Assembly (NCBI RefSeq): GCF_006538885.1
Contig: NZ_BJLY01000001.1
Span: 248,001-312,000, forward strand
Direction of reading: 5' to 3'
DNA: 64,000 nucleotides
From: Gluconobacter roseus NBRC 3990
Lineage (GTDB): Bacteria > Pseudomonadota > Alphaproteobacteria > Acetobacterales > Acetobacteraceae
Below, piece after piece: positions 1 through 14,518 of the stretch (positions within the stretch are counted from its first letter, which is position 1; every line of letters begins with the position of its first letter). A program made the position numbers and the translations under genes. Under the pieces are notes generated by a model that worked only from the letters and a program-made list of their open reading frames with translations, was not told where the DNA came from and ran no database searches.

Positions 1-1069
1 TGTTTACTATTTTGCCCAAAGTGGAGCGGACGTAAATCCGACGGAGTTTTATGTCGAAAGTCTGCAAAGTGGCGGATATTTCAAGGACAAGAACTATGCT
101 GCCTATGCGCAGGAAACCTATAATATCACCAAAAAACTGACATTTACGGCAGGTGTGCGTTACACGGAAGACAACAAAACTTTTACTCCTGATCAGTATA
201 TTACCAAAGTTATTGGTGCCCCCATCGTTTCCACGCCTGTTGGAACCCGCATTGTTCCGTATCAGTCCTATCACAACAACAATGCGCGCTGGACGCCAAT
301 GGTCAATCTTTCCTATCAGTTTACGCCGGAACTGATGGGATACACAACGTTCTCACAAGGGTTCAAGGGTGGCGGATTTACGCAGCGCCTGACGAATATT
401 ACCAATGCTCCTCCTTCATTTCGTCCGGAAAGCGTCAATACTTTCGAGGGTGGGCTGAAGTTTTACGGACTCAACCATCGTCTGCGTATCAGTGCCGCTG
501 GCTTTTTCACTTTTTATGATGACGTGCAGCTTCTGGTGTCTGATGCCACGCATATCGGACCATACTATACCAATGCAGGCAAAGCCCATATCTCGGGTTT
601 TGAACTTGAAGGTCAGTATGCGCTCGGAGACGGTTGGACGGTAAGTGGTTCCGTTGGGGAAACGGATGCGCATTACACGAGCCTAACCGCAAGTGTGCAG
701 GGACTTGGATTGAACTCCATGTTTGTCCTTGTGTCGAAATGGACGGCCAATGCTGGCGTTTCGAAGAGGATCGACCTGGGTCAGTATGGTAGCCTTACCC
801 CTCGGGTAGATGCCACCTATCGGTCCCGCTACAATGCCAATCTGAATGCCATCATGTACAACGCGCTGATACAGCCCAAGTATATAACGGTGAACATGAG
901 CGCGCGCTGGGTTAGTGCAAACCAGAAATATAACGCCATGGTTGGCTTGGATAACGCTTCGAACGAGAAATTCATGGCCTGGGGCAGCTATTCCGGAAGC
1001 TTTGGAAACTACCAGAAATCCTTCGACCGCGGTCGTCAGTGGTACATTCAGGGCGGGGTCGCATTCTGA
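1..1069 (+). CDS. TonB-dependent receptor, C-terminal part
   Basis: The reading frame is open from base 2, so the gene starts outside the window and only the last 355 residues are seen. They form alternating aromatic and polar beta strands of an outer-membrane barrel, with repeated motifs such as AGVRYTEDNK, GYTTFSQGFKGGGF and a terminal strand ending in Phe (WYIQGGVAF), the usual C-terminal signature for outer-membrane barrel insertion. The FSQGFKGGGF stretch is typical of receptors of the FecA/FyuA-like family in alphaproteobacteria. The plug domain and TonB box are not visible. A strong terminator follows the stop codon, so it is transcribed separately from the downstream catabolic operon, although it may import that pathway's substrate or iron for the Rieske enzyme. 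Family assignment is sure; substrate unknown. Confidence 0.9.
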   Translation, partial: VYYFAQSGADVNPTEFYVESLQSGGYFKDKNYAAYAQETYNITKKLTFTAGVRYTEDNKTFTPDQYITKVIGAPIVSTPVGTRIVPYQSYHNNNARWTPMVNLSYQFTPELMGYTTFSQGFKGGGFTQRLTNITNAPPSFRPESVNTFEGGLKFYGLNHRLRISAAGFFTFYDDVQLLVSDATHIGPYYTNAGKAHISGFELEGQYALGDGWTVSGSVGETDAHYTSLTASVQGLGLNSMFVLVSKWTANAGVSKRIDLGQYGSLTPRVDATYRSRYNANLNAIMYNALIQPKYITVNMSARWVSANQKYNAMVGLDNASNEKFMAWGSYSGSFGNYQKSFDRGRQWYIQGGVAF

Positions 1070-1073
1070 CACT

Positions 1074-1112
1074 TTTCCGCTGGGCTGCTTCCAGACACCA
1101 GCGGAAATTTTT
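1074..1112 (+). terminator. Rho-independent terminator of the TonB receptor gene
   Basis: A perfect 10-base inverted repeat, TTTCCGCTGG at 1074-1083 and CCAGCGGAAA at 1098-1107, is followed by a run of T (to about 1112). It begins five bases after the receptor stop codon. Confidence 0.85.
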
Positions 1113-1121
1113 GTGAAAAAG

Positions 1122-1139
1122 TAGTGGAATAATCCACTA
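1122..1139. promoter_or_regulatory. Palindrome, candidate operator of the catabolic operon
   Basis: TAGTGGA-ATAA-TCCACTA is a perfect 7-base inverted repeat with a 4-base spacer. It lies 68 bases before the first gene of the catabolic operon and after the receptor terminator, so it is in the right place for a regulator-binding site such as a MarR-type operator (iac operons of pseudomonads are controlled by the MarR-family IacR). There is no T-run. No MarR gene is seen in the window. Function is inferred from position and symmetry only. Confidence 0.4.
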
Positions 1140-1206
1140 AATGCCGATAGCGTAACAATCATGGATCGCCGCTGGAGCTAAAGCTGCTCCTGAACAAGGA
1201 CATCTG

Positions 1207-2364
1207 ATGTTGAAGCATGTTTCCGATGGGCAGTCAGGTGAACTCCTGAAAGATCCCGCACTCGCGCCACTGCTGGAAACGATCCGGGAGCGTGCGCTGG
1301 AATTCCGCAAAGCCCGCCGTATTCCGCAGGATATCGTTGAAGGGTTTCGCAAGGCGGGTGTTTATCGTGCACTTGTGGCACACTGCTTCGGAGGGCTTGA
1401 GGCTTCTCCGATGGCATTTCTCAGCCTGATCGAAACGATTGCCCACGCCGATGCCTCTGCAGGCTGGGTCGCAAGTTTTGGAGTTTCAGCAACCTATCTG
1501 GCTGCATTGCCCATATCGACGCTGGAAAAGATCTACGCGGATGGCCCCGATGTTGTTTTTGCCGGTGCCATTTTCCCTCCCCAGGCTGCGGAGCGCGTCG
1601 GCAATGATTTCATCGTCAACGGTCGTTGGCCTTATGCCAGCGGCAGCCCCGGAGCGTCACTGATCGGGGTTGGTATTGCCGTAGCTGGCGAGAGTGGCGG
1701 GTTGCCGCGTACCGCTGTCATGCCTGCCTCTTCCGTCCGGATCGAGGAAACCTGGGACACAATTGGCCTTGCCGGTACGGGTAGTCATGATGTCGTCGTT
1801 GAAAATGTCCCGGTAGCCGAGGAATGGACGTTCATTCGTGGCGGCAAGCCGATGCTGGACAAACCGATCTATCAGTATCCGTCTCTGGGACTGGCGGCAC
1901 AGGTGCTAACGGTCGTGGGGCTGGGCTGTGCACGTCGGGCGCTGGATGAAGTAACGGCGCTGGCAGCGGGACGCCGTTCCATTACTGGTGCGCCTACCAT
2001 GGCGGATCGTCCTCATGTCCAGGCTGTTGTTGGCGAAGCTGAAGCGCTGCTCTCGGCGGCGCGGGCTTTTTTCTACGGTGTAACAGAAGAAGCCTGGGGC
2101 CTGCTTCTGGATGGACAGACCGTACCCGAAACGCTTGCCAACCGTATTCGTCTGGCGGCCACGCATGCTGCCCAGGTGGCCGCGCAGGTCGCACGCATGT
2201 GCTTCGAGCTTGGTGGCATCGCTGCTGTGCAGAGTGAGCATATTCTGGGACGTTGCATGCAGGACTGCAGTGTCGTTGCACAGCATGCGTTCATGGCGAA
2301 AGGCAATTACGAAGCCGCGGGACGTGTCATTCTGGGGCGGGGAAACCGACCTGGTTATCCATGA
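1207..2364 (+). CDS. iacA: IacA-like flavin-dependent monooxygenase (acyl-CoA dehydrogenase fold)
   Basis: 385 residues with the three-part acyl-CoA dehydrogenase fold: a helical N-terminal domain to about residue 110 (SLIETIAHADASAGWV), a middle beta domain (VNGRWPYASGSPGA), and a C-terminal Acyl-CoA_dh_2-type helical domain. This is the HsaA/HpaB/IacA branch of FADH2- or FMNH2-dependent hydroxylases rather than a true acyl-CoA dehydrogenase. Start ATG 1207 is preceded by AAGGA at good spacing. It is the first gene of the operon, and a flavin reductase that could supply reduced flavin is encoded at 7572. In Pseudomonas putida, IacA is the enzyme that begins indole-3-acetate oxidation on the indole ring. 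The iacA name is inferred from the whole gene set as much as from the protein; another aromatic substrate is possible. Confidence 0.7.
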   Translation: MLKHVSDGQSGELLKDPALAPLLETIRERALEFRKARRIPQDIVEGFRKAGVYRALVAHCFGGLEASPMAFLSLIETIAHADASAGWVASFGVSATYLAALPISTLEKIYADGPDVVFAGAIFPPQAAERVGNDFIVNGRWPYASGSPGASLIGVGIAVAGESGGLPRTAVMPASSVRIEETWDTIGLAGTGSHDVVVENVPVAEEWTFIRGGKPMLDKPIYQYPSLGLAAQVLTVVGLGCARRALDEVTALAAGRRSITGAPTMADRPHVQAVVGEAEALLSAARAFFYGVTEEAWGLLLDGQTVPETLANRIRLAATHAAQVAAQVARMCFELGGIAAVQSEHILGRCMQDCSVVAQHAFMAKGNYEAAGRVILGRGNRPGYP

Positions 2365-2428
2365 ATTCCGCTTGTTCCTGAATTTCCGCGAAACATCATT
2401 GCAGACTATAACAAGGGAAATATTGCAC

Positions 2429-3695
2429 ATGCAGGGCCTGCCCGATCCCAAGAGCCTTCTGGACGACGACCGTGCCGATGGCTCGATCTACAGCAATCCG
2501 GATCTGTATGACATGGAGATGGATCGCATCTTCATGCACAACTGGATCTGGGTTGCGCATCGCAGTGATCTGCCGGCACCCGGTGACTTCATCACGACAT
2601 TCGTCGGGTCTCACCCGGTCATAGTGTCGCGTGATCGCAAGGGTGTGGTGCATGTCATGCTCAACCGCTGCCGGCATCGTGCCGCGACGGTATGTGAGCT
2701 CAAGCATGGCAAGACGGCCAGTTTCGTCTGCCCCTATCATGGCTGGGCATATGGTCTGGATGGTGCTCTTCGGGGGGGTTCCTCATCAGGAGGGCTATAC
2801 GGGGCAGCTGGACAAGTCCAAACTGCCGCTCATCTCCCTGAAGGTCGAGGAGTATAACGGGCTGATCTTTGCCAGTTTCGACAAGGATATCATGTCCCTC
2901 GATGAGTGGCTGGGCCGTGCGAAGCCCTGGATTGATCTCTTCATGAAGCAGGGGGCCGGCTGGCCGGTCAAGACGATGGGTGAACACAAGTTCACCTTCC
3001 CGGGCAACTGGAAGATCCAGCTCGAAAACACAACGGACGCCTATCACTTCCCGATCGTCCACAAGTCCTTTCTGGATTCCGTCGATGCGGAAACACAGAA
3101 TACGTTCGATTTCGTTGAAGGTGCAGGTTTTGTTGAAGACCTGGGGCATGGGCACTCGGTCATGGTCATGATTCCGGAGCTGGTTGATCTGGATGAAGGG
3201 CTTGATGCCCCTATTCCGGAGCGCTTTGCTGAATTGGCCGCGGAACTGGCCAAGGACTATCCTGACGAGCAGGTCCGCAAGATCGTACGTGCCGTAGGTG
3301 GATCGGGTTTCAATCTCAATCTTTTCCCGAACCTTGCCTGTTCCATGGCCTTTTTCCGGGTCCTGCGGCCTTTGAGTGTAACCGAGACCGAAATCCGCCA
3401 TATCGCCATTGGTATGGATGGCGGTCCTGATATTGCCAATGAAGTGCGTCTGCGGCTTCACGAACATTTTCAGGGTCCGATGGGCTTCGGAACTCCCGAT
3501 GATGCAGAAGCGTGGGACCGGGTGCAGCGCGGATCACTGGCGGGCAAGGATATTTCCATCCTGCTGAATCGTGGTCTTGGCCATGAAGCACGGCGTGAGG
3601 ATGGAAATCTGTTCAGCGACGTCAGTGCCGAAACAGGGATGCGGGCAGCCTACAGACAATGGCTGATTGCGATGTCGGAGGAGGCAGGGGCATGA
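2429..3695 (+). pseudogene. iacC: IacC-like Rieske dioxygenase alpha subunit, frameshifted
   Basis: Two overlapping frames together encode an aromatic-ring-hydroxylating dioxygenase large subunit of about 421 residues. The first frame (from ATG 2429) has the Rieske 2Fe-2S motif: C81-x-H83 and C101-x2-H104 (CRHR...CPYHGW). The second frame holds the mononuclear-iron site ENTTDAYHFPIVHKSF and ends at the TGA at 3693-3695. The break is in a run of seven G at 2772-2778; with six G the protein reads straight through as ALRG-VPHQEGY. All expected residues are intact apart from this one base. In iac pathways IacC/IacD with the reductase IacF oxidise the dioxindole-acetate intermediate towards catechol. 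Either a sequencing/assembly error, a slippery phase-variable tract, or a recent pseudogene. Confidence 0.8.
2772..2778 (+). other. G7 tract causing +1 frameshift in Rieske alpha gene
   Basis: Seven consecutive G between CTTC and TTCC. Deleting one G restores a full-length dioxygenase alpha subunit, with the total length then divisible by three (1266 bases). Confidence 0.85.
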
Positions 3696-4165
3696 GCATT
3701 ACGCTACAGGATGCCATTTCACTTATCACGCTCGAAGCTGACATGCTCGACCATGGCGATTTTCACGACTGGCTGAAACTCTATACGCCAGAAGGGCGCT
3801 ATGTCGTTCCGATTGACCCCGATGTGGAAGATTTCGAGAAGGTTCTGAATTACGCTTATGACGATGCCGAGATGCGTGAAAAGCGCGTCGTACGGCTGTT
3901 GAGCGGTCGTTCTATTTCTGCAGCGCCCCCGGCACGGACAGTCCGGCTTCTGTCGCGTTACCGGATGCTGGAGAGCAGTGACACGCATTGCACCCTGCGC
4001 TGCGCCCAGATGCTTCAGGAACTGCGGCAGGGCCGCGTTCATGACTATGCCGCCAACCTGAACTATCGTCTGGAAATGACTGAGGACGGGCTGAAAATCG
4101 CGCTCAAGGTCGTGCGTCTGCTGATCTCAACCGAGGCGCTGACCGCTGTGAGTTATATCCTTTGA
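3692..4165 (+). CDS. iacD: IacD-like ring-hydroxylating dioxygenase beta subunit
   Basis: 157 residues of the small NTF2-like subunit of ring-hydroxylating dioxygenases: LITLEADMLDHGDFHDWLKLYTPEGRYVVPID at the front, the RVVRLLSGRS and RTVRLLSRYRML strands in the middle, and YRLEMTEDGLKIALKVVRLL near the end. It forms the alpha3beta3 scaffold and has no catalytic residues of its own. Start ATG 3692 overlaps the alpha subunit stop (ATGA), showing translational coupling; an upstream in-frame ATG at 3659 would lie well inside the alpha gene and is unlikely. Intact. Its preservation next to a frameshifted alpha gene argues that the alpha frameshift is recent or artefactual. Confidence 0.85.
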   Translation: MSITLQDAISLITLEADMLDHGDFHDWLKLYTPEGRYVVPIDPDVEDFEKVLNYAYDDAEMREKRVVRLLSGRSISAAPPARTVRLLSRYRMLESSDTHCTLRCAQMLQELRQGRVHDYAANLNYRLEMTEDGLKIALKVVRLLISTEALTAVSYIL

Positions 4166-4896
4166 GCCGGGTTGCACTGGTCACAGGGGCTGCGCGGGGT
4201 CTGGGAGCCTGTATCGCCGGGCATCTTCTGTCAGAGGGATACAGGGTTGTTGCGGCTGATCTGGATCTTGATGCCGCGAAGGCTTCTGTTGCGGACTGGG
4301 GCGATCAGGCGTTTGCCCTGAAAATGGATGTTGCGTCCGAAGCTTCGGTTGAGGCCGGTCTGGATGCGGTGGAACGGCATTTCGGCCTGCCCTGGCTCGT
4401 GGTGAACAATGCCGCAGTCATGAAGGCGCAGAAGGTTCTCGAGATCGATATCAATACGTTCGATGCGGTCATGGCGGTCAATGTGCGCGGCACGTTTCTG
4501 GGATGTCAGCGGTTTGCGCGCAGGTTGCGAGCTCAGAATGCTCCGGGGCGGATCGTCAATATCGGGTCACTGGCCGGTGAAAACGGCGGCACAGCAACGG
4601 GTGCGCATTATGCAGCCTCGAAAGGTGCGATCCATACACTGACGAAAGTTTTCGCACGCGACCTCGCCCCCTTTGGCATCACGGTGAATGCGATTGCTCC
4701 GGGGCCGCTGGATCTTCCATCCGTGGCGGAGACAATCGGTGCCGAGAAAATGCCGGGGCTGATAGCCGGATTACCTACAGGGCAGCTCGGCAACCCGCTT
4801 TCCGTGGCGCGCATGGTCGCGGAACTGGCGCATCCCCTGTCAGGGGCTATCACGGGCTCCACAATCGACATCAACAGCGGATTGTACATGCGATGA
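4162..4896 (+). CDS. iacE: Short-chain dehydrogenase (IacE-like)
   Basis: 244 residues, classical SDR: NAD(P)-binding TGAARGLG (8-15), NNAA at 82-85, catalytic S136, Y150 and K154 (HYAASKGAI), and the IAPGPLDLPS segment after strand 6. The start is a TTG at 4162 overlapping the preceding stop codon (TTGA); no better start is available, and coupling explains the weak codon. In iac clusters the SDR IacE oxidises the hydroxylated indole-acetate intermediate; a cis-dihydrodiol dehydrogenase role is the alternative for an SDR beside a Rieske oxygenase. SDR family certain, iacE role inferred from context. Confidence 0.7.
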   Translation: MSRVALVTGAARGLGACIAGHLLSEGYRVVAADLDLDAAKASVADWGDQAFALKMDVASEASVEAGLDAVERHFGLPWLVVNNAAVMKAQKVLEIDINTFDAVMAVNVRGTFLGCQRFARRLRAQNAPGRIVNIGSLAGENGGTATGAHYAASKGAIHTLTKVFARDLAPFGITVNAIAPGPLDLPSVAETIGAEKMPGLIAGLPTGQLGNPLSVARMVAELAHPLSGAITGSTIDINSGLYMR

Positions 4897-5828
4897 GCAC
4901 ACAGACGATCGAAGTCCGTGTCGGATCATGTGAACTGATCGGGAAAGTCCTGTCTTTCGATCTGCTTCCCGTAACGGACGAACTGCCGCCCTGGGAGGCA
5001 GGTGCGCATATTGACCTGATTTTGGGAGATGACCTTGTTCGCCAGTACTCCCTGTGCGGCGATCCGGCGGATAAGACACGGTACTGTCTGGCCGTGCTCC
5101 TGGAAGAAAATTCCCGGGGCGGTTCACGCACCGTGCACGAAACAGTCAGGCCGGGTGCAGTGCTCAAAATCGGTGCACCCCGTAATCTGTTTCCACTGGT
5201 GCCGTCCGAAGGGCCTGATGTCCTGATTGGCGGCGGGATTGGAGTAACGCCTCTGATCGCCATGGCGCATGAGCTTGGCGACCGCAATGTGCCGTTCACC
5301 CTGCACTATGTCGCGCGCGATCCTGCTTTTGCAGCTTTCCTGCAGGCTTCGTCTTTTGCTGACCGTGTGCAGATACATGACCGGAGTAATCCGTCCACGT
5401 CCCGGCCTGATCTGTCTTCTGTGCTGCAGGGCATTGGACGTGGACATGTCTATACCTGTGGTCCGGTTGCATTGATGGATGGGGTGCAGGAGGCAGCCCT
5501 TGCTCTTGGCCTGACGGAAGCGCAGATCCACCGGGAAGCTTTTTCCGCACTTCCGATTAGTGGGGGAGAAACATTCGAGGTTCTGGCTGCAAAATCCGGC
5601 GTCCGGGTGCAGGTTGGTGCAGACGAACCCATTACTGCCGCTTTGGCACGGGCAGGCGTAAAGGTCACGGTCAGCTGCGAGCAGGGGATCTGCGGAACCT
5701 GTGTCGTTGACCTTCTTGAAGGGGACCCCGACCATCGGGACGAATATCTGACCGAAGATGAACGGACTGACCAGATCGCACTGTGCTGTTCGCGCGCAAA
5801 GTCGCCGTTGCTGGTTGTGGATCTGTAA
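4893..5828 (+). CDS. iacF: Phthalate-dioxygenase-type reductase (IacF-like), flavin and 2Fe-2S
   Basis: 311 residues. FNR-like flavin-binding domain with RQYSLCGDP (50-58), NAD-binding domain with GGGIGVTP (113-120) and YTCGP (187-191), then a C-terminal plant-type ferredoxin domain with cysteines C262, C267, C270 and C298/C299 (SCEQGICGTC ... ALCCS). This is the class IA layout of phthalate and vanillate oxygenase reductases, which pass electrons from NAD(P)H directly to the Rieske centre of the partner oxygenase (2429-3695). No separate ferredoxin is needed and none is seen. ATG 4893 overlaps the SDR stop (ATGA). Family assignment is strong. Confidence 0.85.
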   Translation: MSTQTIEVRVGSCELIGKVLSFDLLPVTDELPPWEAGAHIDLILGDDLVRQYSLCGDPADKTRYCLAVLLEENSRGGSRTVHETVRPGAVLKIGAPRNLFPLVPSEGPDVLIGGGIGVTPLIAMAHELGDRNVPFTLHYVARDPAFAAFLQASSFADRVQIHDRSNPSTSRPDLSSVLQGIGRGHVYTCGPVALMDGVQEAALALGLTEAQIHREAFSALPISGGETFEVLAAKSGVRVQVGADEPITAALARAGVKVTVSCEQGICGTCVVDLLEGDPDHRDEYLTEDERTDQIALCCSRAKSPLLVVDL

Positions 5829-6820
5829 TGGCAGGGCTGAAAATCTGCGTCGCAGGTGTTGGAGCGCTGGGGGGAACCCTGGCCGCGATGCTGGCGCGGA
5901 CAGAGGCCTCCCTTTCGGTCGTGGCGCGGGGTGCAACGCTTCAGGCACTGCACGAAAACGGGCTGGTTCTGGATGATGGACAGGACCGCAGTATCTGCCA
6001 TCCCATAGCGGATACGCGAGCGCCGGACTGTCATCAGGATGTGATCCTGCTGGCTGGAAAGTCTCACCAGTTACCTCAACTGGCTGAAACCGTCAGGCAT
6101 GCTGTTGGCCGTCAGACGCTTGTCATTCCGGTCGTGAATGGTCTGCCGTGGTGGATGGCCACCGACCCAAACGGAGCGTTTGAGGCAGCGGCACCTGTGC
6201 TGGATCCAGATGGACGCCTGTCAGACCTGTTTTCTCGCTCCTGCCTCGTCGGCGCCGTGGCTTATGCCATGACAGAACAGACGGCACCGGGAGTGGTGTC
6301 TTCCGCCCGCGCTCCGATGCTGGTTCTGGGGATGGTGGACGGCATGCCTGATGACAGGTTGAGCCATGTCCTTCATGTCCTGCAGCAGGCGGGGATTACG
6401 GCACGGTCCAGTCCGCAGATCCGATGCGATATCTGGAACAAGATTGCTGCCAATCTGGCGACCAATCCGCTTTCGGTGGTCTGTGAAGCCAGCCTTTCCA
6501 CTCTGGCAGGCGCAGTATCAACAGAGGCTGTTATTGCTGACATCCTTAAAGAAACCCTCGCAGTCGGGACTGCCTGCGGTCTTTCCAACCTGCATGACGT
6601 GGATGAGATCCGGGACACCATTGCGAAGGCAGGTCCACACCGTACCTCGATGCTTCAGGATTACTGTGCGGGGCGCACACTGGAGCTGGACGCAATCGGC
6701 TGGACAATTGCGAAAATCGGGCAGGCGCATGATGTGCCGATGCCCGTTACGTCAACCGTTCTTGAACTGGCAACCTTCAAGGCCGCACAACGCGTGCAGG
6801 CACAGGGAATACGATCATGA
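5828..6820 (+). CDS. Ketopantoate-reductase-like (ApbA/PanE) oxidoreductase
   Basis: 330 residues with an N-terminal Rossmann domain (GVGALGG, G10-x-G12-x2-G15) and a C-terminal helical domain containing CDIWNKIAANLATNPLS, where the Lys and Asn match the conserved catalytic region of 2-dehydropantoate 2-reductases. Start ATG 5828 overlaps the previous stop (TAATG). Embedded in a catabolic operon, it more likely reduces or oxidises a 2-oxo or hydroxy-acid intermediate than makes pantoate. It has no counterpart in the iac operon of Pseudomonas as I know it. The fold is secure; substrate unknown. Confidence 0.75.
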   Translation: MAGLKICVAGVGALGGTLAAMLARTEASLSVVARGATLQALHENGLVLDDGQDRSICHPIADTRAPDCHQDVILLAGKSHQLPQLAETVRHAVGRQTLVIPVVNGLPWWMATDPNGAFEAAAPVLDPDGRLSDLFSRSCLVGAVAYAMTEQTAPGVVSSARAPMLVLGMVDGMPDDRLSHVLHVLQQAGITARSSPQIRCDIWNKIAANLATNPLSVVCEASLSTLAGAVSTEAVIADILKETLAVGTACGLSNLHDVDEIRDTIAKAGPHRTSMLQDYCAGRTLELDAIGWTIAKIGQAHDVPMPVTSTVLELATFKAAQRVQAQGIRS

Positions 6821-7575
6821 CGATGGACATGACGACTGAAGAAATGCAGCTGAGAGTCCGGCTGGCCGAGTGCTATCATCTGATCAATTATTACGGCTGG
6901 ACGGAGATGATTTTCAATCATATTTCCGTCCGCCTTCCGGGCACGCCAACACGTTATCTCGTCAACCCGTTTGGTCTTAATTACGACGAGGTGACGCCTG
7001 ACAACCTGCTGGTCGTTAATGCCGACGGACAGTTGATCACCGAGGCGGAACACAAACCCAATCCTGCCGGCTTTGCCCTTCATGGCGCCATTCATACTGC
7101 CCGTGATGATATTCACTGTGTCATCCATACCCATACGAACGCAGTCTGTGCCGTGGCAATGAAGCAGGCCGGGTTCAGCCATGATAATTTTTACGGCGCG
7201 CAGCTCTTTGAGCGGGTGGGTTATCATGCCTTTGAAGGCATCACCCTTTATGACGAAGAGCGCCCCCGGATGCTCGAAAGCCTGGGCGACAAGCATGTTC
7301 TCGTTCTGCGCAATCATGGGATTGCCGTAGGAGAAGCTGATGTGGCGCGCACGTTCTTCCTGTTGTGGATCGTGCAGCGTGCTGCGGAAATTCAGTGCCA
7401 TGCAGGGCAGATTCCTGGTCCGGATGTGCTGATTTCCGACGATATCAAACGGGGATGCGCGCGAGACGCCGCCACCTTGATTTCCGGATCATCGGCGGCA
7501 GACAGGATGTTTGATGCCGCTGTGCGCAAGATGCGCAAGGAACGTGGACCGCTCTGGACAGGAGACAAGGCATGA
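6817..7575 (+). CDS. Class II aldolase/adducin family protein
   Basis: 252 residues with the metal-binding histidines of class II aldolases, H104 and H106 (CVIHTHTNAV) and H167 (VLRNHGIAVG). The Ser-Ser-Glu motif that carries the catalytic Glu in fuculose-phosphate aldolase is replaced by NPAGFALHG, as in many non-sugar members of the family, so the acid/base differs. ATG 6817 overlaps the previous stop (ATGA), and its own stop overlaps the flavin reductase start. In this operon a retro-aldol or decarboxylase step on a tertiary beta-hydroxy acid, such as 3-hydroxy-2-oxindole-3-acetate, is chemically plausible but is only inference. Confidence 0.75.
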   Translation: MTMDMTTEEMQLRVRLAECYHLINYYGWTEMIFNHISVRLPGTPTRYLVNPFGLNYDEVTPDNLLVVNADGQLITEAEHKPNPAGFALHGAIHTARDDIHCVIHTHTNAVCAVAMKQAGFSHDNFYGAQLFERVGYHAFEGITLYDEERPRMLESLGDKHVLVLRNHGIAVGEADVARTFFLLWIVQRAAEIQCHAGQIPGPDVLISDDIKRGCARDAATLISGSSAADRMFDAAVRKMRKERGPLWTGDKA

Positions 7576-8054
7576 CGAGCGTAACTTCAGACGTTTTTCG
7601 TAAGGCGATGGCGCATTTTGCGACAGGTGTCGCTGTGGTGACGGCAACTTCGGATGAGGGAGAGCAGGGGGCAACAATCAGTGCCCTGAGTTCCGTTTCA
7701 CTTGATCCGCTGACGCTGCTGGTCTGCCTGAACCGCAAAAGCGCGACATGCCGGGCTATCGAGCAGAGCCAGCGCTTTGGCATCAGTATTCTCACGAATT
7801 CGCAGGAAGGCATTGCCCGGCATTTCGCCATGCCGTCCCATGCCAAATCCATGGACGAACACTGTATCCGCCACGATGATGGTACGTGTTTTGTTCGTGA
7901 TGCCCTGGTGCAGATCGGGGTGGAAGTCATTGAGACCCTGCGGGGTGGAACACATGAAATCTTCCTCGCCCGTCCCGTGCACATCACAATGAACGAGGAT
8001 GGCGAGATGCCTCCTCTGCTTTATTATCGAGGCACGTTCGACCTTCTCGCCTGA
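7572..8054 (+). CDS. iacG: NADH:flavin reductase (HpaC/IacG-like)
   Basis: 160 residues of the flavin reductase (FMN-binding split barrel) domain: FRKAMAHFATGVAVVTA at the start, GATISALSSVSLDPLTLLVCLN, and FGISILTNSQEGIARHFA. Such enzymes release reduced flavin to a partner monooxygenase; the HpaB/IacA-like protein at 1207 is the obvious partner. ATG 7572 overlaps the aldolase stop (ATGA). Length is typical for the short HpaC-type reductases. Family certain; pairing inferred from operon membership. Confidence 0.8.
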   Translation: MTSVTSDVFRKAMAHFATGVAVVTATSDEGEQGATISALSSVSLDPLTLLVCLNRKSATCRAIEQSQRFGISILTNSQEGIARHFAMPSHAKSMDEHCIRHDDGTCFVRDALVQIGVEVIETLRGGTHEIFLARPVHITMNEDGEMPPLLYYRGTFDLLA

Positions 8055-8084
8055 ATTCTTCCCTATCCGGAAAAGAGGCTCCCG

Positions 8085-9339
8085 ATGAGCGAAAATACTC
8101 CCGATACTGCCACCGTTCTTCTGGCGCGGATTGAACGTCACGAAGCCAGCATTCAGGCTTTCAGTTCTTATGATCCGGTCCGCTTGCGTCATGACGCCGG
8201 TAATGCACCAAAGGGGCCGCTTTCGGGCCTCAGTGTCGGGGTGAAGGATATCATCGACACGGCCTATTACCCGACGGCGCATGGATCACCGATCTACGCA
8301 GGGCATCATACTCCCAATGATGCCGCATGTGTCACTCAGCTCAAGGCGGCCGGGGCCCTGTGTGTCGGCAAGACGGTGACAACGGAATTTGCTTTTTTCC
8401 GGGCTGGTCCGACAGTCAATCCCTATGATTTTTCACGCACGCCAGGGGGGGTCGTCGAGTGGCTCGGCGGCGGCTGTGGGAGCCGGCATGATCGATATCG
8501 GGCTGGCGTCCCAGACGGCGGCTTCTCTTACGCGGCCTGCATCCTATTGCGGCGTAGTGGGGTTCAAACCGTCTTATGGACGTTATGCCGGGGCGGGAAT
8601 CAAAGGGTTAGCACCGTCTTTTGATACGCTGGGCACAATTACGCCGGATGTTAAAACAGCGGTTCTTGCAGACAGCGTTTTAAAAGGGCCGGTTCCGACT
8701 GCCAGTACGGTGAAATCCGCTGTCCCGAAGCGGGTAGGAGTCTGTCGTACGCCCTGGTGGGATCAGGCTGAGGACTCGACCCGTATGGCTTTGCAAAAGG
8801 CAGGTGCCTGCCTGGGTGGAGAGACACCTGTTGAAGACGTCGATCTGTCTGCATTCAAAGCCGCGGCTGACCTGCATGTGACGATCATGAGCTACGAGGC
8901 CTGCCAGGCGCTGGGCTGGGAATATGCCGAGCAACGCGCCTTGCTCAGCAGCCAGATTGTCAGCTTGATCGAAGCGGGACGTGCGATCGGCTATGCGACG
9001 TATCGGCAGGCTCTCGCGGAAGCAGACAGGTTGCGTGCACAGATTGCCGATGTTTTTACGCGTTATGATCTGTTGCTGGCTCCTGCGGCTCCTGGGGAGG
9101 CGCCAAAGAAAGAAGACGGGACAGGCAGCCCGATTTTCAGCCGCATATGGACGCTTCTGCGTTTGCCAACCGTCACGCTTCCCGGCTTTACGGGTGTAAA
9201 CGGCCTGCCAGTCGGGATTCAGCTTCTGGGCGCATTTGGTGAGGATGAATCCCTGCTGGATTATGCCACATGGGCTGAAACGCTTTTTCCTGCACGCCCC
9301 GTTCCCTCCATTTGCGTGCAGGATACCGGTCATGAGTGA
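8085..9339 (+). pseudogene. iacH: IacH-like amidase, frameshifted
   Basis: Two frames together give an amidase-signature protein of about 417 residues. The front frame has the catalytic Lys K54 (GVKDIIDT); after the shift come GGSSSGSAAAVGAGM with the cis-Ser, and ASQTAASLTRPASYCGVVGFKPSYG with the probable nucleophile Ser147 (numbering of the repaired protein). The break is a run of seven G at 8445-8451; six G would give RTPGGSSSGSA, the family signature itself. Start ATG 8085 is preceded by AGAGG. In iac clusters IacH is an amidase family protein whose step is thought to open or hydrolyse an indole-derived amide. Same open question as for the Rieske gene: error, slippery tract or decay. Confidence 0.8.
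8445..8451 (+). other. G7 tract causing +1 frameshift in amidase gene
   Basis: Seven consecutive G inside the codons of the amidase signature GGSSS. With one G removed the coding length is 1254 bases, divisible by three, and every amidase motif falls in one frame. Confidence 0.85.
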
Positions 9340-9892
9340 ACTTCTGACGCGACTGGAAATACTGGAACAGCGTGTTGTCACACTGGAAGCAGAGGCTGAC
9401 ATCCGCAGGATCCAGGCGCGTTACATGTTCCTGTGCGACACACCCTGCCCTGAAGCTGATGTGAAAGACGATGGGCAGCGCGTGGACCGGATTATGGACC
9501 TGTATACTGAAGATGCAGTCTGGGAAGGTGTCGGCGAGTATTATGACAACCAGTTCGGCCGCTGCGTCGGCAAGAACGCAATTCGGTCGCATTTTCAGGC
9601 TTTCTGGGGCCAAAAGCGTGACCCCGAACTTCTGCTGAACGTGCATTATCTGACGTCGGAACAGATCCATGTTCACGGCGATCATGCGGACGGACAGTGG
9701 ATTCATTGCCAACCCTGGATCTTTAGTGATGGATCCTCGCTTCTACGGTCCAGCCGGCTGAACAACCTGTTCCGTCGTGAAGACGGGGTCTGGAAAATTG
9801 CTCGGACACGGACGGAAAACGTGTTTATTTCTCCCCTGAAAAGTGGATGGGCCGAGACATTTCCAAAGCACTCTGTTCTGATGAACCCCTAA
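9332..9892 (+). CDS. iacI: SnoaL/NTF2-like protein (IacI-like)
   Basis: 186 residues. A short N-terminal coiled coil (LLTRLEILEQRVVTLEAEADIRRIQARYM) leads into an NTF2-like fold with LYTEDAVWEG, GKNAIRSHFQAFW and LNNLFRREDGVWKIARTR, as in SnoaL_4-type polyketide-cyclase-like and dehydratase-like proteins. Start ATG 9332 overlaps the amidase by eight bases; a more distal start would lie deep in the amidase gene. A protein of this kind is present in iac clusters (IacI), where its role is unsettled; isomerase, dehydratase or lactonase chemistry is typical of the fold. Confidence 0.65.
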   Translation: MSELLTRLEILEQRVVTLEAEADIRRIQARYMFLCDTPCPEADVKDDGQRVDRIMDLYTEDAVWEGVGEYYDNQFGRCVGKNAIRSHFQAFWGQKRDPELLLNVHYLTSEQIHVHGDHADGQWIHCQPWIFSDGSSLLRSSRLNNLFRREDGVWKIARTRTENVFISPLKSGWAETFPKHSVLMNP

Positions 9893-9917
9893 TCTGTTTT
9901 TACGAAAGACCACGTTC

Positions 9918-10313
9918 ATGCAAAATACTGAAAGCGCTGCATCGGCAGAGATCATCGAACTTCATCGTCTGCTTCAGGACTGGTTTTGTGGAGTGGGCAG
10001 CAGTGATCCGAAGGATATTCTGGATCGCATGACGCCGGACTACATGATGGTGGGGGCGGCCGGGCGTCTGGTGACGTTCGAAATGTTTGCGAAAGTCTTA
10101 CCCTCGCTTCGTGGCAGTCGTCCGGGCCTGGTCATGGAAATCGAGGACGTGAAAGTTCTTCATGCTTTCGAGGGTGGGATGCTTGCATTCTATCGTGAAA
10201 TCCAGACACAGGGAGAGACCAGAACCGAGCGCTGGTCCAGCGTTCTGTTCTGTGCCGCCGGGCAGGGAGAACAACTGCTGTGGAAGCATCTGCAGGAAAC
10301 ATTCTGCTCATAA
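9918..10313 (+). CDS. Second SnoaL/DUF4440-like small protein
   Basis: 131 residues, predicted NTF2-like cone: an initial helix (AEIIELHRLLQDWFCGV), DPKDILDRMTPDYMMVGAAGRLVTFEMFAKVL, then strands IEDVKVLHAFEGGMLAFYREI and ERWSSVLFCA, ending LLWKHLQETFCS. This is a DUF4440/SnoaL pattern. It is the last gene of the catabolic operon, 25 bases after the previous stop, and is followed by a terminator. It may substitute for the small IacB protein of Pseudomonas clusters or act as a second isomerase; neither can be shown here. Confidence 0.6.
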   Translation: MQNTESAASAEIIELHRLLQDWFCGVGSSDPKDILDRMTPDYMMVGAAGRLVTFEMFAKVLPSLRGSRPGLVMEIEDVKVLHAFEGGMLAFYREIQTQGETRTERWSSVLFCAAGQGEQLLWKHLQETFCS

Positions 10314-10330
10314 ACCCAGGCAAGTTTTCC

Positions 10331-10359
10331 GGTTCTTTCTTTTAAAAAAGAACCTTTTT
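10331..10359. terminator. Terminator between the catabolic operon and the MFS gene
   Basis: GGTTCTTT (10331-10338) and AAAGAACC (10347-10354) form a stem followed by five T. It overlaps the stop codon of the convergent MFS gene, and A/T runs lie on both sides of the stem, so it can serve both strands. Confidence 0.75.
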
Positions 10360-11598
10360 ATCAAACCGGGTCGAGCCATAAAGTAGCAACGCCGCCAGCA
10401 GGCCGCCGCCACATGTTACCAACGGCAAGGAAATTGCGACGCCGGCCACATGGTCATCGAGATATCCGACCAGCATTGAGCCACCAGACAGACCAATTAG
10501 CGCATTACAGAAAAGCAGTACTGCCGAAAACTGGGATCGGAATGTTTTTGGAACCGACTGTTGTAAGACAATGGCTGACGGCGGCATCGGCAGTGCGGCA
10601 CAAAAGAACGACATCGCAAAGAGCATGATACCAAACGGGATATTCGGTGAAGCGATAGATCCCCAGAGCAATGCGGGGGCGGACAGGGCACCGGTAATGC
10701 CCATTGTGGCTGCTGGAAATGGATGATTGCGACGGCCAAGGAAATCAATAAGCCGCCCGCTGACATATGCTCCTGCACATCCGCAGAAAATCGCTGTCAG
10801 TCCCATAATTTCCCCGACGCTTTGATGGGAAAAATGTCTGTACCTTAAGAACAGCGCAGGCATCCAGCTCAGGAGGGAAAACAATATGATGGCTGTGGAG
10901 GAATAGCCGAGAAAGTGACAGGTAAAGAATTTCCAGTGAAGTCGAAAAAACCCCCAGGCTGTTTCCGAAGCTGTATCTTCCTTCTGAAAACTGGCGTGAC
11001 GTCTGCCAGGTTCGCGAACAGTCAGTGCAATAAGCAGGGCCAGAGGCAGGCCTGGCAATCCGACACACAGAAAACAGAGTTTCCAGGCAATGATGCCGTG
11101 CCATTCATGTGTCGTATGCAACAGGCCGATCAGCATTCCGCCGAACAGGAAAGCGATACCTGCTCCAATAAAGGAGCCAAGCGAAAACAGTGCGAGTGTC
11201 TGGCCGAGCTTATAAGGCGTGACAATATCAGCCAAAAAGGAATATACGGCTGGAACAAGGGCTGCCTCACCGACACCAACGGCCATACGGCATATGAAAA
11301 GTTGCCAGAAATTTTGTGCAAAACCACAGGAAATCGTTGCTACGCTCCAGATGATGATGCCAGCGACGATGATGGGGGGGCGGGCTATCCGATCACTGAG
11401 GGCTGCAATAGGCAGGCCGAGTATCGAGTACAGAAGCGAGAATGCCAGTCCATTAAGCAGGGCAAACTGAAAATCCGAAAGCAAAAGAGCGGTTTTGATA
11501 GGGCCAACCAGCAAAGCAAGAATTTGCCGGTCCACGAACGAGAGCACATAGGCGCTGGCGAATAACGCAATGATCCCTCGGGGAGAAGCCAAAACCAT
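10342..11598 (-). CDS. Major facilitator superfamily transporter
   Basis: 418 residues with about twelve hydrophobic helices. The N-terminal LSFVDRQILALLVGPIK and the loop LPIAALSDRIARPPIIVAG are typical of the spinster-like/aromatic-acid branch of the MFS, with GVGEAALVPAVYSFLADI in helix 4. It is convergent with the catabolic operon and is the only cytoplasmic-membrane importer in the accessory block, so it is the best candidate for substrate uptake (or export of a product). A poly-C/G7 tract at 11374-11380 inside this gene is in frame. Start ATG 11598 was chosen as the first codon before the first helix. Substrate is inferred. Confidence 0.75.
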   Translation of the reverse strand: MVLASPRGIIALFASAYVLSFVDRQILALLVGPIKTALLLSDFQFALLNGLAFSLLYSILGLPIAALSDRIARPPIIVAGIIIWSVATISCGFAQNFWQLFICRMAVGVGEAALVPAVYSFLADIVTPYKLGQTLALFSLGSFIGAGIAFLFGGMLIGLLHTTHEWHGIIAWKLCFLCVGLPGLPLALLIALTVREPGRRHASFQKEDTASETAWGFFRLHWKFFTCHFLGYSSTAIILFSLLSWMPALFLRYRHFSHQSVGEIMGLTAIFCGCAGAYVSGRLIDFLGRRNHPFPAATMGITGALSAPALLWGSIASPNIPFGIMLFAMSFFCAALPMPPSAIVLQQSVPKTFRSQFSAVLLFCNALIGLSGGSMLVGYLDDHVAGVAISLPLVTCGGGLLAALLLYGSTRFDKKVLF

Positions 11599-11980: not shown

Positions 11981-12466
11981 TTATGTCCGGTCATCAGCGC
12001 GCTGGAAACGGATGAGGCTGCGGGACAGCCGTCCCTGAGCCCAGTTCGGCATCTTCCGCCACGGCGTCGTAACGTCTGCGGTTGTGCCGCTGACCACAAC
12101 GGTCCGGCGTTGTTCCGTGCCCACCCATTCTGGTGCCCAGGCTGTCTGAACCTGCGTAATCCACTGGTTTCCCTCGACGCGATAGCGCCCGATATAGGCC
12201 ACCAGCGTTTTCATAAGGGCCGGATAATCGGCTTCCGTTTCAGCTGGATGGCGATGGCTGCCCTCCAGGTTGAATGCCACCCATCCATCAGGCGTAAAAA
12301 TGACCCGTCCGCGTGGTGAAGGGCCCATCGCATTGATGAATGTTCCCGTATCCTTTTCCTCCACTCGGTAGGAAACGAGATTCCAGGTGCCGACAAGCTG
12401 ATCTTTCAGCGTTGGTTGTTTCGGATTTCCGTCATCGGATGTCGTGACTCGAAAGACTGAAGCCAT
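11981..12466 (-). CDS. Lipocalin-like domain protein
   Basis: 161 residues. The segment LVGTWNLVSYRVEEKDTG, followed by NAMGPSPRGRVIFTPDGWVAF, is the hallmark of the lipocalin-like (Lipocalin_5, PF13924) family of small beta-barrel proteins of unknown function. Downstream are YIGRYRVEGNQWITQVQTAWAPEW and a basic tail. No signal peptide is apparent. Start ATG 12466 gives the compact domain; a GTG at 12523 would add 19 residues, but its AAAGG touches the codon directly. Divergent from the LysR gene, whose product probably controls it. Some family members bind or isomerise small hydrophobic compounds. Confidence 0.7.
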   Translation of the reverse strand: MASVFRVTTSDDGNPKQPTLKDQLVGTWNLVSYRVEEKDTGTFINAMGPSPRGRVIFTPDGWVAFNLEGSHRHPAETEADYPALMKTLVAYIGRYRVEGNQWITQVQTAWAPEWVGTEQRRTVVVSGTTADVTTPWRKMPNWAQGRLSRSLIRFQRADDRT

Positions 12467-12604
12467 GCTGTTTTCCCGACCCTGTGTGGCGTTTCTGGGC
12501 GTTCTATAACGCAGGCCGATCACCTTTCAGTAGGCGCATCATCGGAAAGGGAATATTACGTCAGATGCAAGAATGAATCGAATTCCGCTTTTAGGGGGCT
12601 CAGG

Positions 12605-13516
12605 ATGCGCCATGACGAAACAGGGGACCTGCGCTTCTTCGCCCATCTTGTCGCCTCCGGCAGTCTGACCGTCTGTGCCCGCAATCTCCAGACATCGCCC
12701 GCGACTGTGTCCCGTCGTCTCGCCCGTCTGGAAAGCCGGCTGGGCAGCCTGCTGGTCGTCCGGAATACGCGGCATTTCGGGCTGAGTGAAAACGGGCGGA
12801 TCTACCATGAGCGCGCCGTGGAAATTCTCGCGCTCGTTGACAGTCTGGAAGAGGAGATTTCATCCAATACCAATATTCCCCGGGGAACGCTCGGGATCGG
12901 CGCTCCGGTAGAACTCGGGCGACGCCTGATAGCACCTTTTCTGGCCACTTTCAGTGCCACGCATCCGGACCTGCTGGTCAATCTGGCACTGGCCTCGGAA
13001 GGTTTTTATGACACCAGTGATTCTCTCGATGTCGTCCTGCGTCTGGGCCTTCCTGATTCTCCGGATGCGGTTGTCACCAGACTGGCCTCGACAGTGCGGG
13101 TCCTATGTGCATCGCCTGAGTATCTGGCCCGCCATCCCCCGCTGGTAACGCCGCAGGACCTGGCGACCCATCACTGTCTCTGTCTGAGGCGCAACAAGAC
13201 AATGGCCCTTCTTGACCGCTGGGTCATCGGTAACGATCTGCAGACGGAGATCATTACGGTCGAACCCCGTCTTTCGAGCACGAATGCTGAGATCATCCAT
13301 GACTGGGCGCTTTCGGGAGAAGGAATCGCCTACAAGCTCCTTTGCGATGTGAAGCATGATCTGGAACAGGGAAGGCTCATGCGGATTTTCCCTGATCTGC
13401 AAGGGGAGAAAATCGACCTTCATGCCGTGTTGCCCAACCGGAAATATACGCAGGCCAGTGTCCGCGCCTTCCTGCACAGTCTTAAGTCCCATCTGCGTGT
13501 TGCTGGTTTCTTTTAG
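12605..13516 (+). CDS. LysR-family transcriptional regulator
   Basis: 303 residues. N-terminal winged helix-turn-helix (LRFFAHLVASGSLTVCARNLQTSPATVSRRLARLESRLG...LLVVRNTRHFGLSENGR), linker helix, then a periplasmic-binding-protein-like effector domain beginning IPRGTLGIGAPVELGRRLIAPFLATF. The shape is that of the large group of LysR repressors/activators beside divergently transcribed oxidoreductase genes. AGGGGGC precedes ATG 12605. It is divergent from the lipocalin-like gene with 138 bases between, the usual arrangement for LysR and its target. It could also act on the catabolic block, but nothing in the sequence shows that. Confidence 0.85.
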   Translation: MRHDETGDLRFFAHLVASGSLTVCARNLQTSPATVSRRLARLESRLGSLLVVRNTRHFGLSENGRIYHERAVEILALVDSLEEEISSNTNIPRGTLGIGAPVELGRRLIAPFLATFSATHPDLLVNLALASEGFYDTSDSLDVVLRLGLPDSPDAVVTRLASTVRVLCASPEYLARHPPLVTPQDLATHHCLCLRRNKTMALLDRWVIGNDLQTEIITVEPRLSSTNAEIIHDWALSGEGIAYKLLCDVKHDLEQGRLMRIFPDLQGEKIDLHAVLPNRKYTQASVRAFLHSLKSHLRVAGFF

Positions 13517-13681: not shown

Positions 13682-14335
13682 GGCTTTCGGACGTCACTGC
13701 GGCAAGCAGGCGGTCATATTCGCTGGCTTCTGTCATGTTGGGAGGAAAAGGGGGCGTTGGGCTCTCCGGAGCGTCTTCCTGCAGTCGTCGGTTGCGCTTG
13801 CGATCGGCGCCTGTCGGCCGCTTGATCATGCGTCCCGAAGCCGGGTTCAGCGAGAGCGGGACATCCCATTCGCTCATGGCATGATTGAGGATGGAGGCCA
13901 AGAGATTGAGCCGCTTGACGACTGTCGCAGCGGCCAGATCTTGCCCTGACGGTCGCGAAAGCCTCGAACTGCTGGAACTGTCAGGCGAGAGAGATTCAGG
14001 TCTGCGATGGGATCGCGAAGCAGTGCCGGGATATGGCCTGTCCGGTCAGCCTCGCGGTGAGCCATGCATTCGTCACGGTAGCGCTCAATCAGGGTTCGGA
14101 GCACGAGGCCATCCAGGGCCCGGACGTCGATATGACGCCCTTCGCGCACTTTGACCGAGGTTTCCTCGAGCCACGCGCGGGCAAGACGGGCGGTGTCAAA
14201 TGTTCTGGTGATCCGCTGGCCGCTGACCGGCTTGCGGGCCCTGTATTGCTTGGGCCCCCGGCAATTCACGCCATCAGGCAGAGGGCGTCCTGTTGCAGGA
14301 TCTTTGGCATTCTCGGCGGACTTTATACGGGCCAT
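13587..14335 (-). pseudogene. Tyrosine-type integrase remnant
   Basis: The first frame (from ATG 14335) encodes an integrase arm/N-terminal region: RTFDTARLARAWLEETSVKVREGRHIDV, then YRDECMAHREADRTG and LSRLTVPAVRGFRDRQGKI. Near 13931-13942 the frame shifts, and the core-binding helix continues in another frame (LAAATVVKRLNLLASILNHAMSEWDVPL, NPASGRMIKRPTGADRKRNRRL). The catalytic domain with R..H-x-x-R..Y is absent; the frame closes after EYDRLLAAVTSE. It sits about 110 bases from the 3' end of tRNA-Glu, transcribed away from it, the usual place for the integrase of an element inserted in a tRNA gene. Clearly non-functional as read. Confidence 0.75.
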
Positions 14336-14442: not shown

Positions 14443-14518
14443 TGGTGTCCCGTACGGGATTCGAACCCGTGTTGCCGCCGTGAAAGGGCGGTGTCCTAGG
14501 CCTCTAGACGAACGGGAC
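14443..14518 (-). tRNA. tRNA-Glu (UUC)
   Basis: Cloverleaf on the minus strand: acceptor GTCCCGT/ACGGGAC, anticodon stem CCGCC/GGCGG with loop CTTTCAC (anticodon TTC), T arm GGGTTCGAATCCC, and encoded ACCA end. 76 bases. The 3' end faces the integrase remnant, consistent with use as an attachment site. Confidence 0.95.

Follow-up and report, generated by a model that had tools for sequence, protein, structure and literature searches.

A 64,000 nt stretch from Gluconobacter roseus NBRC 3990 (contig NZ_BJLY01000001.1, positions 248,001–312,000, which is C1:248001-312000 in a source genome of 2.88 Mb and 12 contigs; hereafter, the window, with genome coordinates written as G000:C1) contains an operon that we class as of the iac type, for catabolism of the auxin indole-3-acetate (IAA), and that appears to be part of a mobile 22.4-kb genomic island at a tRNA-Glu gene. 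With a probability of roughly 55%, we propose that this island joins an iac-type auxin catabolic system to an oxidation front end, by which tryptophol (indole-3-ethanol), an alcohol secreted by yeasts, would be oxidized to IAA and this in turn degraded. Tryptophol is suggested as the starting alcohol by the location, on one island, of a pyrroloquinoline quinone (PQQ)/haem alcohol dehydrogenase (ADH), an arylacetaldehyde-type aldehyde dehydrogenase (ALDH) and the iac genes.

A Core Operon of the iac Type

A previous reading of this DNA from its letters alone (hereafter, the sequence-only reading) described a single operon with genes for an IacA-type monooxygenase, the two subunits of a Rieske oxygenase, a short-chain dehydrogenase, a reductase, a flavin reductase, an amidase and a SnoaL-like protein, in an acetic acid bacterium. 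Scans with Pfam and NCBIfam recovered all these genes, tightly packed and in one direction, and the host is indeed a Gluconobacter, its IacA being 99% identical to that of G. sphaericus NBRC 12467 and 83% to that of G. thailandicus. A tree of 79 IacA-family sequences (79 of 104 rows used), in which several deep branches were long and were flagged by the program, contained an Iac group of 65 rows with a support of 100, apart from other members from Acetobacteraceae; the 14 rows from acetic acid bacteria (AAB) formed a single group, also with a support of 100, nested in it. The Iac group also includes the Acinetobacter baumannii locus and Sphingomonas Root720; the Sphingomonas strains studied in PMC11630574 (in part) are reported to break down IAA by means of a complete iac-like operon, and a supplement legend of this source names Root720. 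Identity to the counterparts from Thioclava was 57 and 65% for the two pieces of IacC, 47% for IacD, 49% for IacE and 44% for IacF, and the intact IacC from G. sphaericus is 66–69% identical to its best matches outside of the AAB.

The equation with the whole iac set, as put forward in the sequence-only reading, held for A, on the basis of the tree, for C, D, E, and F (44–69% identity to other iac loci) and for the IacI-like protein, but not for H. The IacI-like protein matches canonical IacI with a profile probability of 100% and 35% identity, and belongs to a separate subfamily. As for IacG, the flavin reductase shares its family with iacG products and shows 25–35% identity to its best matches outside of the AAB, with a weak 26% to the Thioclava counterpart. 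The amidase, with an equally weak 27% to that of Thioclava, is 40–42% identical to the second amidase of two Marinobacterium loci, which also carry a canonical IacH, versus at most 35% to canonical IacH, and its nearest solved relative is malonamidase E2. The same reading had considered that A, C, and H might find their closest relatives in another pathway, which turned out not to be the case for A and C; in the place of H stands another amidase.

Gene content was compared over 90 loci (the window, L022–L026, L029–L032, and L034–L113), drawing on a search for related loci from which the best 80 of at least 542 confirmed stretches were kept; 62 loci with iacA, C, D, and E were retained, and 28 were dropped as cut contigs or IacA-only loci. 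Fourteen loci are from AAB, including the window and its near-copy L034. Among the 62 loci, IacB occurred in 41, protein X in 18, neither of them in three, and both in none; likewise, the IacI subfamily from the window was present in 24 and canonical IacI in 33, with neither in five and both in none. Because related loci are not independent, the Fisher values of this comparison overstate the evidence. IacB was absent from 13 of the 14 AAB loci and present in that of genome G169 (L029). The genes for the PanE-like reductase and the aldolase appeared as a pair in 11 of the 48 iac loci from outside of the AAB, and never singly there. Given that both IacB and canonical IacH are wanting, the operon is not a canonical member of the iac group, though its core, its regulator and its proposed chemistry are iac-like.

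Protein X was also considered as a distant IacB and rejected: the profile probability was 2% and the predicted structures differ, X adopting an NTF2 fold (predicted local distance difference test, pLDDT, 94.7; match to 1tp6 with a template modelling score of 0.90 and 35% identity) and the IacB from Sphingomonas Root720 being modelled as an alpha/beta protein (pLDDT 85.8; no match at E 0.001). Separately, a number of Bradyrhizobium loci (L065, L066, L069, L072, L078, L079, L081–L083, L089, L091, L092, L095, L098, and L110) carry IacA homologs (53–57% identity), and neither iacC nor D, E, or F was found in their available stretches; these were left out of the counts and perhaps reflect another use of IacA.

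ADH and ALDH Genes Accompany iac

The sequence-only reading placed the system at positions 1,074–10,359 of the window. The operon does lie there, but the unit is larger, with genes for a MarR regulator, ALDH, ADH and a TonB-dependent receptor directly upstream and mostly outside of the window (Table 1); that gene list also missed the PanE-like reductase, the class II aldolase, the second small protein (X), the frame breaks, the island borders and the ADH/ALDH front end. Of the 13 other AAB loci, 10 have genes for both ALDH and ADH at up to 10 kb from iacA; these genes also stand beside the iac genes of the window, and in several AAB loci they are inverted or moved relative to iac.

This association extends to whole genomes. 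IacA was found in three of 26 Gluconobacter genomes, and the island type of ADH (84–100% identity) in the same three; the best ADH match in the remaining genomes of the genus was 61–63%. In a scan of 299 Acetobacteraceae genomes, in which scoring took in the three best candidates of each genome for ADH and the six best for IacA, an ADH with at least 70% identity appeared in only four genomes, the same four that contain an IacA of 71–100%. The next best ADH was at 67%, and three further genomes had an IacA at 54–60% without an island-type ADH; the alignment of the ADH from G169 crosses one stop codon. Additionally, the island ADHs formed one group in a tree of 21 rows, apart from the paralogs of ten Gluconobacter genomes lacking iacA. 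The ADH from the island passed the cut-off for the PQQ methanol/ethanol family, with 8gy2 as the closest solved structure, and its N-terminal end reads like a signal peptide.

In a plasmid from Martelella sp. AD-3 (L023:629-3965), genes for an ALDH (51% identity to that from AAB) and a GMC oxidoreductase precede a canonical iac cluster, possibly as a second, independent alcohol-oxidizing front end.

An IacR-Type Regulator and a Shared Palindrome

The best solved match of the island MarR was 7KUA, followed by 7L19 and 7L1I. The first is IacR from Pseudomonas putida, and the other two are in the deposit list of the same paper (PMC9613470, in part); the printed segments of 7L1I agree with the MarR from the A. 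baumannii locus (L022), and we infer that 7L19 is IacR from E. soli. Among 57 aligned regulators, the contact residues were largely kept, with the Tyr at the position of IacR Tyr44 (numbered after our own reading of the construct) in 57, Trp in 52 and Arg in 56, although the Tyr is not diagnostic because it is also present in 3cjn. From these comparisons, we assign the MarR protein to the IacR type.

It is improbable that the island acts on another substrate, such as a different indole, another N-heterocycle or an aryl acetate. The amidase and the flavin reductase, unlike those of iac clusters, and the missing IacB would be in line with it; however, IacA, C, D, E, and F all group with iac loci, the nearest solved relatives of MarR bind IAA, and the Tyr, Trp, and Arg residues are kept at the contact positions.

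A perfect palindrome, TAGTGGA-N4-TCCACTA, begins 85 bases before iacA, and a second copy with two mismatches lies between marR and the ALDH gene. Using this pattern, which derives from the locus of the window itself, matches were found within 200 bases before iacA in seven of 12 named AAB loci, including the near-copy L034, and within 250 bases after marR in seven of nine AAB loci, whereas all 496 shuffled half-sites fell short of both counts (at best, two before iacA and five after marR). Locus L033 contains two matches, a number equalled by three of 200 shuffles. In the 68 loci from outside of the AAB there were 15 matches in 1.33 Mb. By raw count, five of them, with one to three mismatches, are at or beside MarR genes (L107:18475, L090:9867, L046:9780, L062:8120, and L063:5194), so the candidate operator may be common to iac loci beyond the AAB.

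Borders of the tRNA-Glu Island

The iac set and the front end are enclosed by two copies of a 48-bp repeat, 22.4 kb apart and alike in 48 of 48 bases, one of them being the 3′ part of a tRNA-Glu gene. The G+C content is 0.50–0.59 between the repeats versus 0.59–0.66 outside, and a weak match to an integrase (phrog_1, E 1e-4; none in Pfam) adjoins the tRNA gene. Genome G352 preserves the 48 bases to the left of the repeat. No tRNA gene was found beside the other AAB loci in the 14 stretches scanned, and insertion at tRNA-Glu is thus seen for the present genome only.

Proposed Pathway and Fate of the Ring

The substrates, each of the reactions, binding by the regulator and function in the present strain are what we infer from the gene set. 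A periplasmic PQQ/haem ADH would oxidize tryptophol to indole-3-acetaldehyde, and the arylacetaldehyde-type ALDH would convert this to IAA. IacA, together with the flavin reductase, would then hydroxylate IAA, and IacE would yield dioxindole-3-acetate, which IacCD and IacF, aided by the amidase and the IacI-like protein, could transform into an aromatic product, ammonia and a C4 side-chain acid. In known iac systems, the aromatic product is catechol. In Caballeronia glathei, IacA leads to 2-oxo-IAA and IacE to dioxindole-3-acetate without IacB, and the step to catechol is termed unfilled (PMC7225977, in part). For this step we suggest, from our own chemical reasoning, that the opened lactam might undergo ipso-dioxygenation at the carbons bearing the amino group and the side chain to give a beta-hydroxyketone, whose retro-aldol cleavage would produce catechol and oxaloacetate. 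This route would provide a task for the class II aldolase, freeing the side chain, and a ketoacid substrate for reduction by the PanE-like enzyme, although the existence of iac clusters without either gene indicates that the two are not always needed. The IacR-type MarR would repress both operons through the one palindrome and be released upon binding of IAA.

The absence of a catechol-cleavage gene from the window, already pointed out in the sequence-only reading, together with a call to look for catA elsewhere, is also seen across the genome for intradiol dioxygenases and for enzymes close to catechol 2,3-dioxygenase. A search of the genome turned up no intradiol dioxygenase; in a comparison covering 42 of the 80 loci, such enzymes were present in three of 12 AAB iac genomes versus 27 of 30 others, and two of the three AAB cases, which are adjacent pairs, read as protocatechuate enzymes. 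Likewise, searches for catechol 2,3-dioxygenase in 18 genomes found nothing above the cut-off in this or the other AAB genomes, with matches below it in three of 12 AAB. The genome also encodes one LigB-family protein, scoring best as a 3,4-dihydroxyphenylalanine (DOPA) dioxygenase but below its cut-off, and seven generic glyoxalase-fold matches; an extradiol enzyme of an unrecognized type is possible. Lacking a catechol dioxygenase, the strain probably leaves the ring uncleaved.

More tentatively, we suggest a fuller arrangement, in which periplasmic alcohol oxidation, a hallmark of AAB, is joined to auxin catabolism on one mobile, IacR-controlled island, IacB and IacH are replaced by X and by another amidase, and the carbon and nitrogen of the side chain are released while the ring is excreted as a phenol. 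If true, bacteria living alongside yeasts, fruit and insects would be able to form auxin out of a yeast alcohol as well as to destroy it, and yeast signaling, plant hormone levels and oxidative fermentation would be tied in one horizontally moved unit. The mutually exclusive genes (IacB or X, and the two forms of IacI) and the aldolase/PanE pair would also help to probe how dioxindole-3-acetate is turned into catechol. Tryptophol is a yeast signal (PMC10701894, in part). Cytochrome c biogenesis mutants of Gluconacetobacter diazotrophicus are deficient in IAA synthesis, according to a title cited in PMC5053998 (in part), which would fit a haem-PQQ route; anthranilate was detected in the latter study itself (PMC5053998, in part).

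Weight of the Proposal and Alternative Explanations

Several observations weigh against the joint tryptophol and IAA pathway. No match to IacB was found in the window, canonical IacH is missing and the amidase present is of another kind. In L036, L041, and L044, three of the 13 AAB loci other than the window, the available stretch contains no ADH or ALDH, and two of these are whole contigs of 12 kb. The family model that fits the ALDH best is StyD (phenylacetaldehyde dehydrogenase), with 625 bits against a cut-off of 850, and an enzyme of this same kind ranks second among its solved matches, which makes 2-phenylethanol an equally possible alcohol. The palindrome, taken by counts, is not unusual, with three sites of up to two mismatches in the genome versus seven for the reversed control, and with a match of up to three mismatches in 51 of 100 shuffled windows; the evidence lies in its placing. 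The joined empty site was held whole by none of 26 genomes. Lastly, three genes of the island are broken in the present assembly: those for the Rieske alpha subunit, the amidase and the ADH.

Some of these points could be accommodated by a plain iac operon degrading plant-derived IAA, with ADH and ALDH as mere neighbors for ethanol or 2-phenylethanol. In its favor are the iac core genes; the ADH is related to the ordinary alcohol dehydrogenase of AAB (61–63% identity), the ALDH scores best as a phenylacetaldehyde dehydrogenase, and three AAB loci do without either gene in the available stretch. Nevertheless, we regard this explanation as rather unlikely, given that ADH and ALDH stay with iac even when inverted or moved, that the ADH type co-occurs with IacA in four of four cases in 299 genomes, that iacA and the ALDH gene have the palindrome in common, and that all lie on the same island.

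The frame breaks bear on whether the pathway, of either kind, is running. The Rieske alpha and amidase genes each run over two frames, the break falling in a run of seven Gs in both, and the frame of the upstream ADH gene shifts within a run of eight Gs; function in the present strain is uncertain as a result. Base-calling errors are common in G runs. The island might be decaying, the three breaks being genuine and the pathway inactive, which is quite possible, though we lean against it. Three breaks in a single island, and an integrase that is also merely a remnant, are what decay would leave; however, all the breaks sit in error-prone runs of 7–8 Gs, the Rieske alpha gene is in a single frame in all 13 AAB loci besides that of the window, and the broken genes differ from those of G. 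sphaericus mostly by silent changes (seven synonymous and one nonsynonymous over 420 codons for iacC; 22 and eight over 416 codons for the amidase gene). Of these 13 loci, 11 also have the amidase gene in a single frame, and contig ends cut it in the remaining two. The window contains four G7 runs, of which two are the breaks, one is inside an intact gene and one is outside any long frame, a number and placing from which the assembly error rate is not to be judged. Both base-calling error and very recent loss fit the three breaks. A switch by phase variation in the G runs was rejected as their cause, since runs of 7–8 are short for that.

Gene Organization

The operon spans positions 1207–10313 on the + strand throughout, as deduced from the list of open reading frames and the family scans, and neighboring genes either share one to eight bases or are at most 65 bases apart (Table 1). 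The TonB-dependent receptor gene upstream of iacA is conserved in several AAB loci. Directly 3′ of it, at 1074–1107, two 10-bp arms form a perfect inverted repeat around a 14-base loop, and a T run follows; this is probably a terminator between the receptor gene and the iac operon.

Table 1. Features of the island and its surroundings in G. roseus NBRC 3990 (window positions, unless preceded by G000:C1)
Feature	Position	Strand	Remarks
Major facilitator superfamily (MFS) transporter	G000:C1:240618-241907		Upstream of window
MarR	G000:C1:241957-242424		Upstream of window
Second palindrome copy, 2 mismatches	G000:C1:242524-242541		Between marR and ALDH gene
ALDH	G000:C1:242591-244105		Upstream of window
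PQQ/haem ADH, two pieces	G000:C1:244057-245352, 245144-246199		Upstream of window
TonB-dependent receptor gene, 3′ part	1..1069	+	Pfam; whole gene G000:C1:246697-249069
Perfect palindrome, candidate operator	1122..1139		85 bases before iacA
iacA, flavin-dependent monooxygenase	1207..2364	+	Pfam, NCBIfam, tree
iacC, Rieske oxygenase alpha	2429..3695	+	Two frames (break in G run 2772-2778)
iacD, Rieske oxygenase beta	3692..4165	+	Adjoins iacC
iacE, short-chain dehydrogenase	4162..4896	+	
iacF, ferredoxin-type reductase	4893..5828	+	
PanE-like ketoacid reductase	5828..6820	+	
Class II aldolase/adducin-family protein	6817..7575	+	66% identity to counterpart beside Thioclava iac
Flavin reductase	7572..8054	+	In iacG place
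Amidase, other than canonical IacH	8085..9339	+	Two frames (break in G run 8445-8451)
SnoaL-like protein	9332..9892	+	Alternative IacI subfamily
Protein X	9918..10313	+	NTF2 fold (modelled); only in loci without IacB
MFS transporter	10342..11598	-	
Lipocalin-like protein	11981..12523	-	
LysR-type regulator	12605..13516	+	
Integrase remnant	13874..14335	-	Beside tRNA
48-bp repeat, 3′ part of tRNA-Glu (14443-14518)	14443..14490	-	Right island end; perfect copy G000:C1:239984-240031

Comparison With Known Systems

The sequence-only reading held that such a pathway is not part of the known physiology of AAB. In keeping with this, the literature listings contained no paper on iac genes in AAB, and the word "Acetobacter" appears zero times in the main texts of PMC9613470 and PMC11630574 (both in part, the search covering neither the 221-genus figure nor the supplements of the former); it occurs once in PMC11676955, within a list of plant-growth-promoting genera. 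However, a passage from PMC5053998 (in part) allows for it, declining to exclude that Gluconacetobacter diazotrophicus has a catabolic pathway for IAA.

The island shares with the iac clusters from P. putida 1290, A. baumannii, and C. glathei the genes iacA, C, D, E, and F, an IacI-like SnoaL protein, a flavin reductase, an amidase and an IacR-type MarR. Unlike these three, it has protein X instead of IacB, another amidase and another IacI subfamily; it adds PanE, the class II aldolase, the ADH/ALDH front end and the TonB receptor, and its genome turned up no intradiol catechol dioxygenase. An aldolase and a 2-dehydropantoate reductase, of unknown function there, also adjoin iac in Marinomonas sp. 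NFXS50, which differs from the island in having iacB and catechol pathway genes (PMC11373566, in part). The Marinomonas cluster also has an alpha-hydroxy-acid dehydrogenase beside it, as do G. thailandicus and Nguyenibacter, where a gene for a flavin mononucleotide (FMN)-dependent enzyme of this kind follows marR (L035:2397-3593 and L036:960-2144, respectively); it is absent from the locus of the window, and might feed indole-3-lactate into the pathway or act on the side chain.

Six loci from Bradyrhizobium, Methylobacterium, and Rhodopseudomonas (L056, L064, L071, L088, L093, and L094) contain the same IacI subfamily as the island, with 71–75% identity, and have no IacB, with X in five of them; they differ in that IacA is only 55–58% identical and in that there is no such PQQ ADH in the available stretch. 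The iad locus from Variovorax and Bradyrhizobium japonicum has in common with the island a Rieske oxygenase and a MarR. The iad pathway leads from IAA to anthranilate and the iac pathway from IAA to catechol. Markers of iad are families of the indolepyruvate ferredoxin oxidoreductase type (PMC9613470, in part); an iad-type pathway was rejected for the island, as no iad marker family was found among its scanned proteins and IacA is present. Finally, the membrane-bound PQQ ADH of AAB (AdhA; 8gy2) is the closest to the island ADH in structure and family, and the latter is a separate paralog, 61–63% identical to the copy present in most Gluconobacter and with its own group in the tree.

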